Below, one piece after another: positions 3,709 to 11,299 of a stretch of 24,370 nucleotides of DNA (position 1 is the stretch's first letter; every line of letters begins with the position of its first letter). The notes under the pieces were generated by a model, which did no database searches, was not told where the DNA came from, and was given only the letters and a program-made list of their open reading frames with translations. The position numbers and the translations under genes are program-made. The stretch is from a virus, in IMG/VR virus record IMGVR_UViG_3300032224_001324, positions 1-24,370 of that record. The stretch is one strand, 5' to 3'.

Positions 3709-5334
3709 ATGGGTTACTACAGAACGTACTATCTAACATCAGGTACATCATTCACTGTTCCTAATACATGGAATAATAGCGCTAACTTTGTAGTTTGCTA
3801 CGGTGGTGGTGGTGGCGGTGGTGCCGGCAGTAGTACAGGTGCCACTTATACTGGTGGCGGTGGTGGCGGTGGTGCTGCTTCAAAAACTACAAACATAACT
3901 CTTACACCGGGCAGTAGTATCCCTTATTTTGTTGGCGCCGGCGGTGGTCCTAATTCAGGTGGCGGTGATACATCTTTTAATAGTGGTCAAGTATATGCAA
4001 AGGGTGGTACTGCTGGTGGTAGTAGTGGCACAGCCGGTGTAGGTGGTTCAGGCGCTAGCGGTACAGGCGCTTCTCGCTACTATGGCGGTAATGGTGGTAC
4101 AGGTGGTAATGGCGTAGGTGGTGGTGGCGGTGGTGGTGCTGCCGGTGATGGCGGTGACGGTCAAGCCGGTTATACCTATAGTGGCTCTTCTGGTGGTCCA
4201 GGTGGTCAAGGCTATGGTGGTTCTGCTGGTGGTTCTGCTGGTACTGGCAATGCTGGTAATGGTGGTAATGGTAGCTATGCTGGCGGTGGCGGTGGCGGAT
4301 CAGGTGCTTATTATTCCGATAAAGCAGGCTCGGCACAATATAACGGCGGTAACGGCGGTTATTATGGTGGCGGTGGTGGCGGTGGATACTATGGCGGCTA
4401 TGGCATACAAGGTATCATTGTTGTTGGATATTATTGGGATAATATAATTCCATCAACAGGTCAGGTCACAGCACAAAATTGGAATCTAGCATTAGACTTA
4501 CCACCAACAAGTTCATTTAATATTGCTGGTACACCTGCCCGTAATCTTGCCGGCATTCTTTCTGGAGCTATTAGTTATCAAGATGGCCGCGGTAAGGGTG
4601 TGTTTGCACTTGATAGAACAATAACTGCAGATACACCAAATTATAATCTTTACAATGATCTTCTTTATAATGCAGCTTGGGATGGTTCAACAAAAGTAAA
4701 CGTAACAATTACTATCAATAGTGGAATTTATGTTTACTCAACAAGCACCGGAACACCAGCAATGGTTATCTCTGGTATGCCTGCCGGCTCTGTTGTCAAC
4801 ATCATAAATAATGGATATATTATTGGTGCTGGCGGCTACGGCGGTAAAGGTGAAGGTGGTAGTGGTTATAATAGAAGCTCAGCTGATACCGGTTATGCTG
4901 GTGGCGGGGGTGGAACCGCTCTTCAATTAGGTAGTACTGTAAATATTACAAACAATGGCGGTATTTGGGGCGGCGGTGGTGGTGGCGATGGTGGCCGTGG
5001 CGGTAACACCGGCGGCAAATCACGCGGTCCTACTGCTGGTGGCGGTGGTGGCGGTGGTGCTGGTTATAATGCAGGTGCTGGCGGTCCTGGTGGTACCAAT
5101 GGTGAGGGAGCTAATGGTAGCGCTGGAGCAAATGGTGGTAGAACAACAGGTGGTGCTGGAGGTGCTGGTAGAGCTTCTCCAGGTGGTAATGGTGGTGATG
5201 TAGGTAATGCAGGCGGACCTGGTGATTACGGTAGTGGTATAGTTTATGGTGTTGGTGCTGCAGGTTATTATATTATTGGCGGTGGGTATGCCACTTGGAT
5301 AACAACAGGCGATCGCCGCGGACAAGCAGGATAA
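3709..5334 (+). CDS. large two-domain glycine-rich adhesin-like protein
   Basis: A 541-residue protein starting two bases after the S74 fibre stop. After LTSGTSFTVP (9-18), which matches the lead-in of the first fibre gene, residues 32-235 form a Gly-rich domain with many GGGGGGG runs spaced by Ser, Ala, Tyr and Asn. A non-Gly-rich linker (about 240-370) carries fibre-like beta segments. A second Gly-rich domain begins near 373, with the sequences NITNNGGIWGGGGGG and GGTALQLGS. The second domain resembles the C-terminal glycine-rich receptor-recognising regions of T4-group gp38 and of some lambda-type side-tail proteins. It could be the terminal adhesin on the S74 fibre, as gene 38 follows gene 37 in T4. 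That pairing is inferred from position. Reverse-strand frames here look open only because GGN codons read as His/Pro/Thr-type codons. Confidence 0.75.
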   Translation: MGYYRTYYLTSGTSFTVPNTWNNSANFVVCYGGGGGGGAGSSTGATYTGGGGGGGAASKTTNITLTPGSSIPYFVGAGGGPNSGGGDTSFNSGQVYAKGGTAGGSSGTAGVGGSGASGTGASRYYGGNGGTGGNGVGGGGGGGAAGDGGDGQAGYTYSGSSGGPGGQGYGGSAGGSAGTGNAGNGGNGSYAGGGGGGSGAYYSDKAGSAQYNGGNGGYYGGGGGGGYYGGYGIQGIIVVGYYWDNIIPSTGQVTAQNWNLALDLPPTSSFNIAGTPARNLAGILSGAISYQDGRGKGVFALDRTITADTPNYNLYNDLLYNAAWDGSTKVNVTITINSGIYVYSTSTGTPAMVISGMPAGSVVNIINNGYIIGAGGYGGKGEGGSGYNRSSADTGYAGGGGGTALQLGSTVNITNNGGIWGGGGGGDGGRGGNTGGKSRGPTAGGGGGGGAGYNAGAGGPGGTNGEGANGSAGANGGRTTGGAGGAGRASPGGNGGDVGNAGGPGDYGSGIVYGVGAAGYYIIGGGYATWITTGDRRGQAG

Positions 5335-5345
5335 GGAAAGTTTAA

Positions 5346-5672
5346 ATGGCTAATAATATTACTATAAATGTCAAAAGCTATAATCAAAACACTATGTCTT
5401 TGATTGTTAGCTTTTCTGATGGAACTCATACAACAACAGATGTTCATGTTCAACCATATGTCTATGGTGCTGATAATACTGAAGACATGCTTAAGATGCT
5501 AGCAATTACTGGAAGTAATATGTTATTGACTGAAGTTAAAAGACGTAATTTTGCTGCCAACTTTGCTGCCCATGCTGAAATAAGAAGTGTTGTAAACACA
5601 TCTGTAACATTTTCAAGAGATGAAATTCTTGATATGTCTATTACTAATAATGGTCTTGAGGTTCAGATATGA
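5346..5672 (+). CDS. hypothetical protein of the fibre locus
   Basis: A 108-residue protein I do not recognise. It starts after an AAGGA site (about 5333-5337). Residues 1-35 look like beta strands (NITINVKSYN, SLIVSFSDGT), followed by a helical middle (EDMLKMLAITGSNMLLTEVKRRNF) rich in Ala/Asn and a polar C-terminus. No signal peptide, membrane segment or catalytic motif is seen. Its stop overlaps the next start as ATGA, so it is the first gene of the coupled chain running to 8724. It could be a small virion or fibre-accessory protein. It carries no sign of the enzymes downstream. Confidence 0.7.
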   Translation: MANNITINVKSYNQNTMSLIVSFSDGTHTTTDVHVQPYVYGADNTEDMLKMLAITGSNMLLTEVKRRNFAANFAAHAEIRSVVNTSVTFSRDEILDMSITNNGLEVQI

Positions 5673-6178
5673 AACATATTGAAGCTCCATTTATCTGTAA
5701 GGGGTTTGTCATTTGTGTTGGGCATTTAAGTGCTAACGACATATATGATTTTACAACTAAAGAAACAACAACAGATGGTGTTTTTAGTCAACTAGGTTAT
5801 TGCTTAGATGGTGGAGCTGTATTGAACGACAAGAATGGTCGTAAGGTAATGGATCTTGTTGCCGGTCAACTTTATGACTTTAAAGATCTTTATGGTAAAG
5901 AATATACAATGAATACCGGTACCCGTGGTGGTACTTGGTTTTGTATTAACCCAACACCTGCAACAAAAAGATACAAGTATGACTTAATTAGAGAAAGTCA
6001 AACTAAGTCAATTGCCGGTAAAGATTTTGAGCAAACAGTAATATGTGTTTATGGATCTATTACAGTAAATGGAAAAGATTTGATTGGTAAGCAATATGCT
6101 CGTATTCTTAATAACAAAACAGCTGTTGTTACTACACAACCAAATTCATTAGCATTGTATTTCTATGAGGACAAATAA
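5669..6178 (+). CDS. hypothetical protein, possibly duplicated cupin-like barrel
   Basis: A 169-residue protein with start and stop overlapping its neighbours (ATGA at 5669, TAATG at 6178). Two halves each look like short beta strands with glycine turns. In the first, residues 35-95 contain LDGGAVLNDKNGRKVMDL and a Gly/Thr turn. In the second, residues 120-169 contain VICVYGSITVNGKDL, then QYARI and a closing ALYFYED strand. The second half has the rhythm of a cupin barrel (strand, G-S-I-T-V-N-G, strand, late aromatic strand), but I see no complete His/Glu metal-binding set. The fold is a weak inference and no function is assigned. Position suggests a fibre-locus accessory protein co-translated with the small VKNIIVVD protein. 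Confidence 0.7.
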   Translation: MKHIEAPFICKGFVICVGHLSANDIYDFTTKETTTDGVFSQLGYCLDGGAVLNDKNGRKVMDLVAGQLYDFKDLYGKEYTMNTGTRGGTWFCINPTPATKRYKYDLIRESQTKSIAGKDFEQTVICVYGSITVNGKDLIGKQYARILNNKTAVVTTQPNSLALYFYEDK

Positions 6179-6444
6179 TGAAAGTAGCAATGGTTCACAC
6201 CGCTACACATGTGGTTAAAAATATTATTGTTGTTGATTCATTAAATGATACACCACCAGCTGGATATCATTATGCTGAAATGGAAATTGTTGAAACCCCA
6301 ATTGATCCAGAAATAAAAGCACTGCAAGATATTATTAAAGAAGTAGATCCTCTGTACAAGGTGGTTGAACCTACTTACCATGAAAGACCAATCAAATTAA
6401 ATAAAACAAAATGGACAAGTGAAAGAGGCTTTTTTGAGGATTAA
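6178..6444 (+). CDS. second small VxNIIVxD protein
   Basis: An 88-residue protein whose opening (MKVAMVHTATHVVKNIIVVD, 1-20) parallels the 1139-1408 protein (MKAILINSENIVENIIVWD). The two are probably distant paralogues of the same small fibre-locus family. The rest differs: PPAGYHYAEMEIVETP (25-40) is followed by a charged helix and a Lys/Arg-rich end (KLNKTKWTSERG) instead of the Gln-rich heptads. The ATG overlaps the upstream TAA. The stop is three bases before the next gene, whose Shine-Dalgarno (GAGGA) lies inside this gene's last codons. The function is unknown, possibly accessory to a fibre or adhesin. Confidence 0.7.
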   Translation: MKVAMVHTATHVVKNIIVVDSLNDTPPAGYHYAEMEIVETPIDPEIKALQDIIKEVDPLYKVVEPTYHERPIKLNKTKWTSERGFFED

Positions 6445-6447
6445 TTA

Positions 6448-7494
6448 ATGTTACTTGGTGAAATGTATTATTATGATAATGATAACAAGATTTATCCATT
6501 AAAGAATGAAGCTCTTAAAACTAAAAAAGATTTAAAGTTTTATTTCCATGATGATTTCTTTATCAAACAGCAATGGAAAGTAGAGCCAACAGAGTCTCTC
6601 AATGAGCTCTATAAACAGCGTGCCCAACAAATACGTGACAAATACGAATACGTAGTTCTTTGTTACTCTGGTGGTGCCGATTCAACTCAAATATTAGAAT
6701 CGTTTTATTACAATAATATCCATATTGATGAAATATTGGTTGTCGGCGCTCTTTCACAAGATAGTGAAAAAAGCGTTGATGAAAACCACAACGGTGACCT
6801 GTATCACAATGTGTTTCCAACACTCAATCAGTTTAAGTTGCCAAACACTAAAATAACTTTAATTGATTATACCAAGTATTTTAATGATCCAAACTTCTTC
6901 ACTTTAATTAAACAATATGGTCCTGAGTACCACAATTACATTGGCACATACTCAAGTGTACACAATCTATTTTGGTATGACTTACCTTTATTTTTTAGAT
7001 CAGATAAGCAAATAGCATTTATATTTGGTGCTGAAAAACCCAAAGTAATTTATCATAAAGACACTGGTAAGTTTTGTGCTACATTTATGGACTCATCTTT
7101 AACAGATTATGGTTTTAGATATAACTACGGTAGCGGTAAGAGAGTTAACTTCTATACAGATCCTGATGCTATTAAGTTAATGATTAAACAACACCATGCA
7201 GTTAAGAATTTTCTTTTAGAAAATGTTATTGGTAAAGATCCAATGATATATGATCGGTTTCAAGTAGATTATTTTAGTAATGTTAGACCTATAATCTATA
7301 ACTTAAAAAATCCACTGGCTTTTGAATCTATAAAATCCAAGACAACCGTTTTAAGTGCTAGAGACAAGTTTATGCTAATAAACAAGAATTCAGAGATATA
7401 TAATATATTCAGACAATCGTTAGTAAACCTTAGTAAAGATCGTAACATTAATCAACGTTATTCAATTCCATCAAGAGAGTATCCATTAAACTAA
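6448..7494 (+). CDS. PP-loop ATPase-like protein (first of three)
   Basis: A 348-residue protein with a P-loop-like pyrophosphatase motif YSGGADST at 73-80, preceded by the hydrophobic strand YVVLC. This is the SGGxDS loop of the N-type ATP pyrophosphatase (adenine nucleotide alpha hydrolase) fold, as in asparagine synthetase, QueC and tRNA thiolases. These enzymes adenylate a carboxylate, carbonyl or base before attack by an amine or sulfur nucleophile. About 70 residues precede the motif. There is no glutaminase Cys at position 2 and no CxxC zinc pair, so it is neither a full asparagine synthetase nor a typical QueC. Residues 77-105 align with the protein at 7927 (D-S...F..NNI.I..I.V). The ATG follows GAGGATTAATTA. 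The stop overlaps the hydroxylase start (TAATG), so the two are co-translated. The substrate is unknown. Confidence 0.78.
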   Translation: MLLGEMYYYDNDNKIYPLKNEALKTKKDLKFYFHDDFFIKQQWKVEPTESLNELYKQRAQQIRDKYEYVVLCYSGGADSTQILESFYYNNIHIDEILVVGALSQDSEKSVDENHNGDLYHNVFPTLNQFKLPNTKITLIDYTKYFNDPNFFTLIKQYGPEYHNYIGTYSSVHNLFWYDLPLFFRSDKQIAFIFGAEKPKVIYHKDTGKFCATFMDSSLTDYGFRYNYGSGKRVNFYTDPDAIKLMIKQHHAVKNFLLENVIGKDPMIYDRFQVDYFSNVRPIIYNLKNPLAFESIKSKTTVLSARDKFMLINKNSEIYNIFRQSLVNLSKDRNINQRYSIPSREYPLN

Positions 7495-7949
7495 TGTACT
7501 ACATTTACTGCTTCATTGGTTGGACTTTTTGTATTTACTGGTGTCATAGAGTGGCTCACCAAATACCCGCACTGCAATACTTTCATAAAGACCACCACAA
7601 ACAAATAGCTGATGATACTTATCAGGGATTGAATTGGAAGAATCTTTTTTTATTTTTTGATACTTGGAAAAGCACTATTGATCAATGGTTAACAGAAGTC
7701 ATACCCACCATTATTCTTAGTTACTTTGTTGGTTGGTGGTTATTTGGATTATATTATGTGTGGGCTGCTTTCATACAAGAAGCAATAGAGCACAACCCAA
7801 AGTTCAATCTGTATCCATTTATAACTAGTGGTAAATGGCATCTTGTTCATCACAGTCATAATGATAAAAACTTTGGTGTGTTTTTTCCTATATGGGATAT
7901 TATATTTGGATCTTGGAAAGCTATAGATGACAAAGAACGATTGGTTTAA
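7494..7949 (+). CDS. fatty acid hydroxylase-family membrane di-iron protein
   Basis: A 151-residue integral-membrane oxygenase candidate. The histidine clusters of the fatty acid hydroxylase / sterol desaturase family are all present: HRVAH (18-22), HKDHH (31-35), a lone His at 100 (EAIEH) and HLVHHSH (116-122). They are followed by the family signature NFGVFFPIWDIIFGSW (126-141). These His residues bind two irons that activate O2 for C-H hydroxylation or desaturation of lipids, sterols or carotenoids. Hydrophobic segments lie at 1-17 and about 68-95. Known members are usually over 200 residues, so this is a compact form, but no catalytic cluster is missing. It overlaps its neighbours at both ends (TAATG at 7494 and 23 bases at 7927), placing it firmly between two PP-loop genes. 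The family assignment is strong. The substrate is not inferable. Confidence 0.85.
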   Translation: MYYIYCFIGWTFCIYWCHRVAHQIPALQYFHKDHHKQIADDTYQGLNWKNLFLFFDTWKSTIDQWLTEVIPTIILSYFVGWWLFGLYYVWAAFIQEAIEHNPKFNLYPFITSGKWHLVHHSHNDKNFGVFFPIWDIIFGSWKAIDDKERLV

Positions 7950-8724
7950 ACACAATCTAGCTAATAGATTAACTGACCCAAGTTGCAATCTTAAAATAAC
8001 AATCAATCCAGGTCAATATACCAAGATGTCATTTGATGAAGCTTGTGACTATACGGCTAAGCAGATATACAAAGATCTTGGGCCTAGTCTTTATCTTGCG
8101 TTAAGTGGTGGTTATGATTCTGAGTTTGTTTTGAGAGTGTTTCAACGAAATAATATTCCAATTATTCCAATTGTTGTAATGACTGGCGGTAACCAAAAGG
8201 AAGCAGAATATGCTTTTAAAGCTTGTCCAGATCCTGCATTAATTGGTATAAATGAACAAATAGTTTTAAAGACATATTATACAGAAATATATCAAAAGTT
8301 AAACAGCTATGGTATTCACTCGGTACCAGCTTTATTGTGTGGTCAATATGCACAGGAACGTGGTGGTAATCTTGTTGTAGGTGAACATATCATTGATGGC
8401 ACAACGTTTCGTGTTAATGACTGGGATTTTTACAACGATGTATTATTAACCAATAAGACTGCTGAGTTCTTTATCTATACACCGGAAGTTGTTTATGCAA
8501 TGACCTATGAGATGACGGAAGATAGTGAACAACAATGGAAAGATAAGCTCTATAAATTGAAATCTAGACCAATTCATAGTTATCAATATACAAAAGCATT
8601 TGATACAGTATTAAAAGACATTAATTCAAAAAGACAATGCCATCCAAACCCTAGTCATTTATTTGGTAATAAAAATCAAATGTTAGACCAAATGTCAGTA
8701 TTTGATTTACCCTGTAATGAGTAA
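7927..8724 (+). CDS. PP-loop ATPase-like protein (second of three)
   Basis: A 265-residue protein with LYLALSGGYDSEF at 55-67, the SGGxDS pyrophosphatase loop after a hydrophobic strand, and TGGNQKEAEYA at 86-96 where the fold's second nucleotide-contact region usually lies. The loop and following helix/strand resemble the 6448 protein (LSGG.DS....L..F..NNI.I..I.V), suggesting duplication, but the C-terminal halves differ. Neither a glutaminase domain nor a zinc-cysteine cluster is present. The start at 7927 overlaps the hydroxylase gene by 23 bases and has only a weak GGAAAG upstream. Met34 is an alternative start that keeps the motif. The 3' end overlaps the convergent QueC-like gene by 49 bases. 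The proximity and overlaps suggest it acts with the hydroxylase. The reaction is unknown. Confidence 0.75.
   Translation: MTKNDWFKHNLANRLTDPSCNLKITINPGQYTKMSFDEACDYTAKQIYKDLGPSLYLALSGGYDSEFVLRVFQRNNIPIIPIVVMTGGNQKEAEYAFKACPDPALIGINEQIVLKTYYTEIYQKLNSYGIHSVPALLCGQYAQERGGNLVVGEHIIDGTTFRVNDWDFYNDVLLTNKTAEFFIYTPEVVYAMTYEMTEDSEQQWKDKLYKLKSRPIHSYQYTKAFDTVLKDINSKRQCHPNPSHLFGNKNQMLDQMSVFDLPCNE
8676..8724. other. 49-base convergent gene overlap
   Basis: The plus-strand PP-loop gene ends at 8724 and the minus-strand QueC-like gene ends at 8676, so their last 16 codons are complementary. Both reading frames run cleanly to their stops (TAA and TGA). No hairpin with a T-run is visible between them, so read-through would give antisense RNA to each gene. 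Confidence 0.75.
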
Positions 8725-9539
8725 TGCTGATTAGAATTTACATAATCAATTACCATTTGCTTTGTACGCAAGTCATTAATAATCTTGCCTCTTCTCATTT
8801 CAATAGGTAACCAATATCTTATTGGTGCAGATATGCCAGTATTGCCACCATACTCTAATGACTTTAATCTTCTCCAAGCATTAACATGTTCAGCAGTATA
8901 ACCGTTTAATCTCATGTCTTGAACTTTTTGATCCCACAAACACTTATAGCATCTACCACAAGGTTCATTCCATTGACCATTATTAGTAGAATTTGGGCTG
9001 TGGCAAGAAAGTGTTAATTCAAGAATGTTTTGTGGAAGATATTCAAATACATGCCATCTTGAAAAGTTTTCATAGTACTCATCTGTTACCAAAGGATTCC
9101 ACAACTCACCTCTTGTACAGAGCTCTGCAAACAACCTTTCAGCAGCAAATTGTGAGGGTGTTCCTTTTACAGAAGAATTCTTATATACAGATTGATCTTG
9201 TTGTTCCCAGGTACGACCTGTTGCTATTCTATCATAGACACCTGCATTAATATCAGCAGCTACACTATTAATGAAATATGTGTAGTAATGATCTGTTTCG
9301 GGTGTAATACTTTGATCAGTAACTGTTTTTCTAATGACTTCAAAATCTCTAATTTTTTTCAATTCTTGAATTAATCTTGGTATTCTAAGACTGCTTTGTG
9401 GTGTGTGACTAATACTATTCTGTGCTCCAGGTGCTTTATCAAGAACCACGGCTGTAACCTGATCGGTTGTATCAGTCAGTAATTTATACAGAATAAAAGT
9501 TGAATCTGCACCACCAGACCACATTAATAGTGTTTTCAT
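8676..9539 (-). CDS. QueC-like PP-loop protein with four-cysteine zinc site
   Basis: A 287-residue protein on the minus strand. The N-terminal MKTLLMWSGGADST (loop at 8-14) is the ATP pyrophosphatase motif right at the start, as in QueC. Cys179, Cys194, Cys197 and Cys200 (CGRCYKC at 194-200) match the C-xn-C-x2-C-x2-C zinc site of 7-cyano-7-deazaguanine synthases, although the first spacing is 14 residues, longer than in bacterial QueC. QueC makes preQ0 from 7-carboxy-7-deazaguanine, ATP and ammonia. Some phages use this chemistry to modify DNA or tRNA. The protein is longer than usual QueC (about 230 residues), and no FolE, QueD or QueE is in the window, so a different substrate is possible. 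AGGAG at 9550-9546 precedes the ATG, and a late-type element lies at 9559-9566. Confidence 0.75.
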   Translation of the reverse strand: MKTLLMWSGGADSTFILYKLLTDTTDQVTAVVLDKAPGAQNSISHTPQSSLRIPRLIQELKKIRDFEVIRKTVTDQSITPETDHYYTYFINSVAADINAGVYDRIATGRTWEQQDQSVYKNSSVKGTPSQFAAERLFAELCTRGELWNPLVTDEYYENFSRWHVFEYLPQNILELTLSCHSPNSTNNGQWNEPCGRCYKCLWDQKVQDMRLNGYTAEHVNAWRRLKSLEYGGNTGISAPIRYWLPIEMRRGKIINDLRTKQMVIDYVNSNQHYSLQGKSNTDIWSNI

Positions 9540-9558
9540 TTATAACTCCTTTTTATAC

Positions 9559-9566
9559 TATTTATT
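9559..9566 (-). promoter_or_regulatory. putative late promoter element for the QueC-like gene
   Basis: The plus strand reads TATTTATT, so the minus strand is AATAAATA, a NATAAATA variant. It overlaps the stop codon of the TctC-like gene (9562-9564) and lies 19 bases before the ATG ending at 9539. The leader would be very short but would still contain the AGGAG site. It is weak on sequence alone and is supported by position. Confidence 0.4.
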
Positions 9567-10506
9567 TGACTTTATCCAGTAAGTCTTTAGGAGTATTAGC
9601 TAATCTTTGCACAATATCGGTAACTTCTTGCCAACTTACTGGGTTTACCTCAATACTGGCTTTATTTGCTTCCTCAATATATTCCGGATCATTAGCAGCA
9701 AGTAGGAACCCTCTTCTTAAAATCTTTAGTTGTTTTTCTGATGTTTCAGGTGGAGCAATATATGGCCGCATTGTAGTATATTGCATTTCAAATAATTCAA
9801 GAAGTTGTTGATCTTTTTGATCAATAAGTTCAGCCAAAGTAGGTACGTCAGGAATTAGATGATATCTATTTTTACCGTTTGCAAACTGAAACATGATATT
9901 GATACCACTGTCTGGCTTAAGCCATTCTGGTTTAAATTGTCTGACACCATTATATGTGTTGAGATATGCTTCAACTTCTTTCTTTTCAAAAGCAAATCTT
10001 ACTTCATTAGCTGTATTATATCCATTTACTAGCTTAAAGTTTAATTTTGTTGCTAGTTGAATAAACTTTACAGGATCACCAATAACATTGTTTTGTGTAC
10101 CAACAATTAGTGGATTACTACATGGATTGCAATTTATTAGAAAGATATTGGCATTTTGACGACCGTCTGCCGTTGACCCAAGCCAGTTAAACTTCTCAGG
10201 CTTATACTCAATGCTTGGCCCACCAATGATACCAATAATAGGAATATTCTTTTGAGTAACAGCAATTGTAAAGCCATCTTTGGGTGCTATTGAATACATG
10301 TAGTTAGCAACAACCACACCGCCAGCACCAGGCATGATTTTATAAGTTATGGACGTAATATTTGGGGTGTGGTTTTGCAAGTATTTTGAGAATATTCTTG
10401 CATTTAATGCATGGGCATCATATGCGGCAGACATAACAATAGTCAGAACTTCTGCTTTTACGGGGGTAATAAATAACAATAATGCTGCCAAAATAGCTTT
10501 AAACAT
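9562..10506 (-). CDS. TctC/Bug-family periplasmic solute-binding protein
   Basis: A 314-residue protein with a clear signal peptide (MFKAILAALLLFITPVKA, predicted cut after Ala18). Family hallmarks of tripartite tricarboxylate transporter receptors follow: MPGAGGVVVANYMY (58-71), APKDGFTIAV (74-83), YKPEKFNWLGS (101-111) and PDVPTLAEL (219-227). Such proteins bind carboxylates or related small molecules in the periplasm and hand them to TctAB membrane partners, neither of which is in this window. I chose the ATG at 10506 because GGAG lies seven bases upstream and the signal peptide then starts the protein. The longer frame from 10635 would run into gene 13. A perfect TATAAATA on this strand lies 35 bases upstream. 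The family is usual in proteobacterial chromosomes and odd in a phage late region. The ligand is unknown, and the CxxC at 126-129 is unusual. Confidence 0.87.
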   Translation of the reverse strand: MFKAILAALLLFITPVKAEVLTIVMSAAYDAHALNARIFSKYLQNHTPNITSITYKIMPGAGGVVVANYMYSIAPKDGFTIAVTQKNIPIIGIIGGPSIEYKPEKFNWLGSTADGRQNANIFLINCNPCSNPLIVGTQNNVIGDPVKFIQLATKLNFKLVNGYNTANEVRFAFEKKEVEAYLNTYNGVRQFKPEWLKPDSGINIMFQFANGKNRYHLIPDVPTLAELIDQKDQQLLELFEMQYTTMRPYIAPPETSEKQLKILRRGFLLAANDPEYIEEANKASIEVNPVSWQEVTDIVQRLANTPKDLLDKVK

Positions 10507-10558: not shown

Positions 10559-11299
10559 ATGGCCGTTCCAGCTTCCAGACAAGACTTTACAGAATATTGC
10601 CTTCGTAAATTGGGTAAGCCAGTTATTGAAATCAATGTGGATGATGACCAAGTTCAGGACCGTATTGATGAAGCATTTCTTTATTACACCGACTATCACT
10701 TTGATGGTACCGAGAAAACCTATTACAAGTATCAAGTAACGGATACCGATATTACCAACAAGTACATTACGATGCCAGAGAACATCATCGGCGTCGTTAA
10801 TCTGTTTCCAATTGGTCAGTCTCTCAACACCAATAACTTGTTCAACATTCGCTATCAGATTGCATTGAACGACTTGTATACTCTTACATCGGTCTCGATG
10901 GTTCCATATTACATGGCTCTATCGCACGTTCAGTTCCTTGAACAGTTCTTAGTTGGTCAGCAGCCACTACGCTACAATCGTCACATTAACAAGCTCTACA
11001 TTGACATGGACTGGACACTCGTTGTCTCCGGTGACTACATCATTGTCGAGGCTTACTCAGTAATTAATCCAGACACATATACAAAGACTTGGGGTGATCG
11101 CTGGCTCGCTCGCTACGCGACTGCGTTGATTAAGCAGCAGTGGGGAACTAACCTTAAGAAGTACCAAGGAATGCAATTGCCAGGTGGCTTAACTTTTAAT
11201 GGTCAGCAGATCTATGATGAAGCTACTCAAGAGAGAGAAGAGCTTGAACATGAAATGATTACCAGCTACTCACTCCCAGTTACAGATATGATTGGCTAA
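10559..11299 (+). CDS. 13: head completion / neck protein gp13-like
   Basis: A 246-residue protein matching the T4 gp13 neck family: an N-terminal helical segment (CLRKLGKPVIEINVDDDQVQ within 15-35), a YYTDYHFDG block, and a C-terminal part with WGDRWLARYATALIKQQWG and LPGG. gp13 and gp14 form the neck between portal and tail and allow tail docking after DNA packaging. T4 gp13 is about 309 residues, so this is a shorter version of the kind usual in aquatic T4-like phages. It is the first gene of the conserved block and its stop overlaps the gene 14 start (TAATG). It uses more C-ended and CGT-type codons than gene 14. Identification rests on both sequence and the unbroken 13-14-15-16-17 order. 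Confidence 0.85.
   Translation: MAVPASRQDFTEYCLRKLGKPVIEINVDDDQVQDRIDEAFLYYTDYHFDGTEKTYYKYQVTDTDITNKYITMPENIIGVVNLFPIGQSLNTNNLFNIRYQIALNDLYTLTSVSMVPYYMALSHVQFLEQFLVGQQPLRYNRHINKLYIDMDWTLVVSGDYIIVEAYSVINPDTYTKTWGDRWLARYATALIKQQWGTNLKKYQGMQLPGGLTFNGQQIYDEATQEREELEHEMITSYSLPVTDMIG

Follow-up and report, generated by a model that had tools for sequence, protein, structure and literature searches.

The stretch of DNA analysed here, called the window in the following, comprises 24,370 bases of the IMG/VR virus record IMGVR_UViG_3300032224_001324 and represents a T4-like late region, in which the adhesin genes extend to position 5334, the neck gene gp13 starts at 10559 and further late genes follow. 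The genes of the gp14, gp15, terminase, sheath, tube and portal types downstream of gp13 were named from gene order and sequence. Between the adhesins and gp13 lies an island of five accessory genes (6448-10506), consisting of PPA, FAH and PPB on the plus strand and of PPC and the gene for a TctC-like protein on the minus strand (Table 1). PPA and FAH overlap by 1 base and FAH and PPB by 23 bases, while PPB and PPC are convergent and share 49 bases. A first-pass annotation had described the island as a tightly overlapping group of three SGG-x-DS proteins, an FA-hydroxylase-family protein with a complete set of histidines and an exported TctC-type protein, placed between adhesins and neck genes. 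This description was right in its features and positions: every gene is open where it had been located, and the PP-loop motif is present in PPA, PPB and PPC.

Table 1 Genes of the island and its borders in the window
Feature	Position	Strand	Basis
Gly-rich adhesin, upstream border of the island	3709..5334	+	sequence composition
orf3, small tail-fibre-associated type, directly upstream of PPA	6178..6444	+	judged from sequence; 3-base gap to PPA
PPA, PP-loop synthetase, 348 amino acids	6448..7494	+	motif CYSGGADST
FAH, membrane di-iron oxygenase of the FA-hydroxylase superfamily, 151 amino acids	7494..7949	+	PF04116
PPB, PP-loop synthetase, 265 amino acids	7927..8724	+	motif ALSGGYDSE
PPC, QueC-like PP-loop protein	8676..9539	-	motif MWSGGADST
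TctC-like exported periplasmic binding protein, 314 amino acids	9562..10506	-	PF03401, signal peptide
gp13, T4-type neck protein, downstream border of the island	10559..11299	+	phrog_211, E 7.9e-43

The genes of the island recur together in other viruses. A scan with PPA uncovered 39 viral loci. Removing redundancy at 80% PPA identity and requiring 3 kb of downstream sequence left 25 of them, with PPA relatives of about 41-56% identity. Their neighbours were tabulated with profiles built from the PPA and FAH loci. FAH and PPB are both present in 21 of the 25 loci, PPB alone in one, FAH alone in none and neither gene in three. Moreover, a TctC gene of any kind occurs in 22 loci, the 2-oxoglutarate-Fe(II) (2OG) oxygenases c6 and c8 in 18 and 14, respectively, and PPA2 in 15. 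By contrast, PPA, PPA2, PPB, PPC, FAH and TctC are absent from all 43 control contigs (at least 4 kb upstream, flank of 4-10 kb), which were picked by relatedness of gp13 (about 57-80% identity) among the matches listed (Fisher p 7e-14, PPA loci against controls, not corrected for phylogeny). A 2OG oxygenase or a desaturase does occur in some controls, and c9-type matches occur in one. Because co-occurrence in 21 of 25 loci stands against none in the 43 controls, the island can be regarded as an accessory, transferable unit that is usually wholly present or wholly absent, and the recurrence of the same set in dozens of divergent viral contigs makes it more than a chance assembly. Viral scans that used a single sequence of PPB, PPC or TctC gave nothing, the back-translated patterns from one sequence being too strict, and the relatives of these proteins were reached through PPA, FAH or alignments.

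These results also bear on the simplest alternative, namely that the island is a loose set of independent accessory genes without a joint function, gathered in a permissive insertion hotspot. The slot between tail fibres and neck corresponds to the host-recognition cluster of pelagimyophages, which is a hypervariable hotspot in T4-like phages (PMC7029224). Furthermore, gene order and strand differ between the relatives, and PPA at times occurs alone. However, beside PPA, FAH is never found without PPB, the controls lack the whole set, and the linkage of FAH to synthetases is repeated in a second, separate architecture described below. The co-occurrence thus largely refutes this alternative, which we consider very unlikely. 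The first-pass annotation had suggested to examine whether the proteins co-occur and had named homologues scattered singly as evidence to the contrary; such scattering was looked for and not found, and the genes form a system. The pairing of synthetase and TctC genes and the additional partners in the relatives, i.e. the 2OG oxygenases, an amidoligase-like protein and a methyltransferase-like protein, go beyond what had been observed at that stage.

The core of the system is formed by FAH, PPA and PPB. FAH matches PF04116 with an E-value of 7.5e-18 (65.7 bits, cut-off 31) and has no PHROG match. Its histidines H18xxxH22, H31xxHH35, H100 and H116xxHH120 are invariant across 18 viral relatives, and a hydrophobic stretch covers residues 65-94. 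For PPA and PPB, Pfam, PHROGs, NCBIfam and PADLOC yielded no assignment, including no PF00733 match in the Pfam search, and a sequence search of solved structures returned no match for PPA or FAH and generic PP-loop matches only for PPB. The related synthetase c9 reaches PF00733 below the cut-off (E 0.0087, 16.2 bits, cut-off 21). AlphaFold models built on alignments of the viral relatives have a pLDDT of 94.6 for PPA and 95.3 for PPB. The best structural match of PPB is asparagine synthetase (VIA Z 14.4, root-mean-square deviation (rmsd) 3.2, 233 aligned residues), followed by beta-lactam and carbapenam synthetases with Z scores of about 12. For PPA, VIA found these families at lower quality, with a Z score of 11.1 (rmsd 6.7) for asparagine synthetase and about 10.9 for beta-lactam synthetase (overall rmsd 6.4-7.1), and the Foldseek match was borderline (E 1.1e-3). 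From residue 2 on, PPB aligns to the synthetase half of the enzymes of known structure (VIA), and neither PPA nor PPB has room for a glutaminase domain. Among the PPA relatives, Y9, R58, R63, the SGGxDS motif, D94, E95, T134 and K197 are invariant. Thus, both proteins are predicted from the models to adopt the synthetase fold of asparagine and beta-lactam synthetases without the glutaminase domain. Such folds adenylate a carboxylate or a similar group and then transfer it to ammonia or an amine.

FAH is also found in a second viral cluster. Loci retrieved with FAH (L043-L062) contain the GNAT-like c24, the synthetase c13, the GNAT-like c25, the fatty-acid desaturase c10 (PF00487, E 5.5e-13) and the synthetase c9, followed by FAH. 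In all 18 of these loci (L056 and L057 excluded), a c9, c13 or PPB synthetase is located near FAH, and most of them also carry c10 and c24 or c25. The latter two have no Pfam match of their own; they are labelled GNAT-like because a c24-type gene of locus L147 scores against PF00583 (E 2.5e-5). A scan with c9 revealed that at least 441 coding stretches encode relatives of this synthetase, and among 79 newly tabulated c9 loci, the desaturase was present in 39, c13 in 35, c24 in 32, c25 in 28 and FAH in 27, one of the FAH loci (L202) also carrying PPB. The second cluster adjoins genes of the ThyX and AAA/VWA types, as judged by eye. It is probably not tied to tail and neck genes, since in the genome G008 FAH lies at 127 kb, whereas gp13 gave a single weak match (E 8.9e-9), located at 60 kb. 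Two desaturase genes and a GNAT gene stand in one row with FAH, a synthetase gene of the PPB/c13 type and the beginning of a TctC gene at the 6-kb locus L147 (JANWKP010000208.1), the most compact version of the cluster. This contig has been binned in a metagenome-assembled genome of the archaeal Nitrososphaerales and is probably a misbinned viral contig. In L056, FAH is accompanied by desaturases, an acyl-carrier protein, radical SAM and ATP-grasp genes. Based on the c9/c13 clusters, L147 and L056, the recurring pair consists of FAH and an asparagine-synthetase-type enzyme in lipid-like company. A role in small-molecule or lipid metabolism, one of the options raised by the first-pass annotation, is therefore strengthened, because FAH recurs with other synthetases, desaturases and GNAT-like genes.

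The TctC-like protein of the window carries an N-terminal signal peptide, MFKAILAALLLFITPVKA, which was read by eye, and its match to PF03401 (E 1.1e-5, 25.6 bits) is slightly below the cut-off of 27. Relatives of the TctC7 group reach E 2e-18 and 67 bits, and signal peptides could be recognised by eye in nearly all viral TctC relatives. TctC7 proteins have two invariant cysteines, which would be consistent with a periplasmic disulphide. Genes for synthetases and TctC proteins move together, side by side. Within the PPA loci, TctC7 adjoins a PP-loop gene in 20 of 20 cases, PPC adjoins TctC4 in six of six, c9 adjoins TctC7 in two of two and PPA2 adjoins a TctC gene in 19 of 24, and two synthetase-TctC pairs each are present in L011 and L014. 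A separate scan with PPC added four further close loci (L160, L164, L165 and L166), all of which have TctC4 divergently beside PPC; in the more distant PPC relatives L168, L169 and L171, PPC instead follows a 2OG-oxygenase-like gene (by eye). The PPA2-TctC7 pair apparently moves as one module, because it is on the opposite strand in L004 and L005 relative to L003. Divergent proteins of 120-150 amino acids (clusters c37, c56, c69, c94 and c105) are encoded beside PPA2 or TctC7 in L008, L011, L015, L019, L022 and others; by eye, they seemingly share one small alpha-beta fold.

The tight pairing, with its duplication in L011 and L014, would also suit a nutrient-capture function, in which TctC captures carboxylates from the medium by way of a host permease for amidation or assimilation by the synthetases, while FAH would be a side activity. 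A tctA domain and a 2OG-Fe oxygenase have been recorded in phage contigs (PMC6359870). However, neither a TctA nor a TctB permease gene came to notice in the island, for which no permease profile was run, the tightest linkage is that between FAH and PPB and not one with TctC, and FAH recurs with synthetases at loci without a detected TctC gene. Nutrient capture is thus quite unlikely.

PPC is the island's QueC-like member. It matches phrog_1550 (QueC-like) with an E-value of 8.5e-11 and PF06508 below the cut-off (E 0.0012), and it retains a variant of the zinc motif, C(x)14CxxCxxC in the window, with a spacing of 12 or 14 in the relatives. These features could speak for a 7-deazaguanine-type modification of DNA or tRNA with PPC acting as QueC. 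Moreover, L047 (4181-8957) carries FAH and a PPB-type gene a few kb from a PTPS/QueD match and, by eye, a QueE-like gene, which is the only hint linking island-type genes to 7-deazaguanine genes. On the other hand, the QueC motifs have been defined as C(x)8CxxCxxC and YxQxHxxE (PMC13329287), and PPC has neither this spacing nor, in any of six sequences, the YxQxHxxE motif. Neither a QueD nor a TGT family member was detected in the cassette records tested, several of which span 105-168 kb; of the 12 records tested overall, 11 lacked a PTPS/QueD family match and all lacked one to TGT; the PPC-bearing records, which are fragments, gave no match to PF01242 or PF01702. The modified nucleobase, which the first-pass annotation had listed beside a surface lipid or glycan, is hence not supported and highly improbable, whereas the small-molecule or lipid part of that proposal gains from the second cluster and L147. 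A role as a defence system was also considered and rejected, as PADLOC gave just a weak QatC match for PPC.

The genomic position of the island raises the question of whether the enzymes modify the adhesins or tail fibres of the phage during late assembly, by amidation, hydroxylation, isopeptide formation or lipid attachment, thereby tuning receptor binding or stability. The cassette-type loci with resolved flanks sit between adhesins and neck, and small tail-fibre-type orfs are found near PPA, c3 in 19 and orf3 in four of the 25 dereplicated loci. Copies related to orf3 precede the cassette in L002, L009, L010 and L029, and c3 occupies this slot in other relatives. L167 contains PPC and TctC7 among adhesin genes. 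The sole isolate lead points in the same direction: in Pseudomonas phage Cygsa01 (PP179332.1; L150, 6730-8879), a Gly-rich adhesin is directly followed by a tandem pair of c9-type genes, which carry the annotation MnmA, and FAH is not annotated nearby. Position alone is weak evidence, because accessory genes of many unrelated kinds are found in this slot in T4-like phages (PMC7029224). Furthermore, FAH is a predicted membrane enzyme, the TctC partner proteins are exported to the periplasm, and the cluster of FAH, synthetases, desaturase and GNAT-like genes is apparently located outside the tail and neck region. We therefore consider fibre modification unlikely, but it stays in contention owing to the adjacent adhesins, L167 and Cygsa01. 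As for the flanks of the island, the gp13 product of the window shares 64% identity with the neck protein of Stenotrophomonas phage DLP6, and the small orfs at 5346, 5669 and 6178 received no enzyme assignment from any profile match. The proteins encoded at 1124-1408, after the first adhesin, and at 6178-6444, before PPA, have a common N-terminal pattern of the ALINxxTNIVENIIVVD type and are both probably tail-fibre accessory proteins.

Apart from Cygsa01, deposited phages provide little. PPA, PPB, PPC, TctC4, TctC7 and c13 did not match any of the 50,697 deposited phage records, so that four of the five island proteins are without a match there, and FAH had two weak ones. The FAH matches in INPHARED, assigned to Acinetobacter phage MD-2021a, were rejected because the neighbouring purH, metN and nahG genes are chromosomal. 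The record concerned (L149, CAKLQH020000004.1) contains the housekeeping genes purH, purD and metN in the stretch examined and seems to be a misfiled bacterial chromosome. One cellular scan with PPA gave nothing, and L147 was the sole match of the cellular scan with FAH.

Taken together, the island, which is shared by uncultured T4-like phages, probably serves the synthesis or the attachment of an oxidised small molecule or lipid in the course of infection; that it acts late is suggested by gene position. A small molecule or lipid is favoured over tail-fibre modification because FAH is a membrane protein, TctC is exported and the second cluster is apparently remote from tail genes. As a working model, which we put forward tentatively although it leads the explanations discussed here, the genes form an accessory pathway that produces an oxidised amide-type small molecule or lipid. 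The core of the island consists of the membrane di-iron oxygenase FAH and the two asparagine-synthetase-type ATP pyrophosphatases PPA and PPB, to which pairs of a synthetase and an exported TctC protein are added, in the window PPC and TctC. FAH could oxidise a membrane-associated acyl or other hydrophobic substrate, and PPA and PPB may adenylate carboxylates and couple them to ammonia or an amine. The TctC-like protein might bind a small carboxylate in the periplasm and either feed the pathway or hold its product. This product would most likely be a lipid or small molecule of the oxidised amide type, by which the envelope or the metabolism of the host is altered. It is also possible, if somewhat doubtful, that the genes encode a hitherto undescribed specialised metabolite pathway of the virus, in which duplicated asparagine-synthetase-type ligases, each coupled to a TctC protein, and FAH jointly assemble an acyl-amide lipid or small molecule specific to the phage, with the desaturase and the GNAT-like proteins taking part in the second lineage.

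Several observations weigh against a small molecule or lipid as the product. The PF04116 and PF00487 families include non-lipid enzymes. No desaturase or acyl carrier protein is present in the cassette-type records tested, and the acyl substrate is thus a mere analogy drawn from the second cluster. The fold agreement of PPA is modest (Z 11, rmsd 6-7), and PPA may have another use, since it is found without FAH and PPB in L007, L012 and L032. Finally, the island adjoins tail-fibre genes, and the adhesin context of PPC and TctC7 in L167 and of the c9-type synthetases in Cygsa01 fits virion modification better.

The function of the accessory genes upstream of gp13 in T4-like phages, 2OG-Fe oxygenases and others, is not settled. 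In one phage group, these genes form conserved multi-gene modules, which are predictable, clonable and testable. Moreover, a large amide-type synthetase family is common in uncultured viruses and nearly missing from isolates, as illustrated by the c9 relatives, which occur in a single isolate; in Cygsa01, this family could be studied. If the product is a lipid or a small molecule, the island would stand for a new class of virus-made metabolite, and if fibres are modified, for a new kind of virion chemistry.

Accessory metabolic islands as such are known from phages. In the open-access literature, no paper describing the gene set of the island was found, nor a description of its near all-or-none behaviour or of the synthetase-TctC pairing. 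The closest counterpart in position is the hotspot (PMC7029224) of pelagi- and cyanomyophages such as HTVC008M and Mosig, which occupies the same slot and shares the 2OG-Fe(II) oxygenases c6 and c8. However, PPA, PPB, PPC, FAH and TctC do not occur there, and the hotspot holds ferrochelatase-like, heme oxygenase or halogenase genes instead. In Mosig and HTVC008M (L065, 8880-13965; L066, 10665-13944), the slot upstream of gp13 is a hotspot of oxidative enzymes, filled with ferrochelatase-like genes and 2OG oxygenases, to which Mosig adds a heme oxygenase and a PcyA-like gene. The TctC-like protein resembles TctC (PF03401), the receptor of tripartite tricarboxylate transporters, in its signal peptide and, slightly below the cut-off, in its family match, but its partners are synthetases of the ATP pyrophosphatase type, and neither TctA nor TctB was noticed among the called genes, which were not searched with permease profiles. 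PPC shares SGGxDS and the CxxCxxC zinc motif with the QueC/QatC/Cap9 family (PF06508) and differs from QueC by the C(x)12-14 spacing, the missing second motif and the pairing with an exported TctC protein instead of, as far as the fragmentary records show, QueD/E or TGT. Like other members of the FA_hydroxylase superfamily, for instance OlsE, FAH is a small membrane protein with the full di-iron histidine set, but it scores only E 0.1 and 11.9 bits against the ornithine-lipid hydroxylase model NF052566 (cut-off 475). Finally, PPA and PPB share the PP-loop SGGxDS motif and, over nearly their full length, the fold with asparagine synthetase B and the beta-lactam and carbapenam synthetases (1ct9, 9b6c, 1jgt and 1q15), from which they differ by the absence of the N-terminal Ntn glutaminase domain and by a sequence identity of 6-14%.

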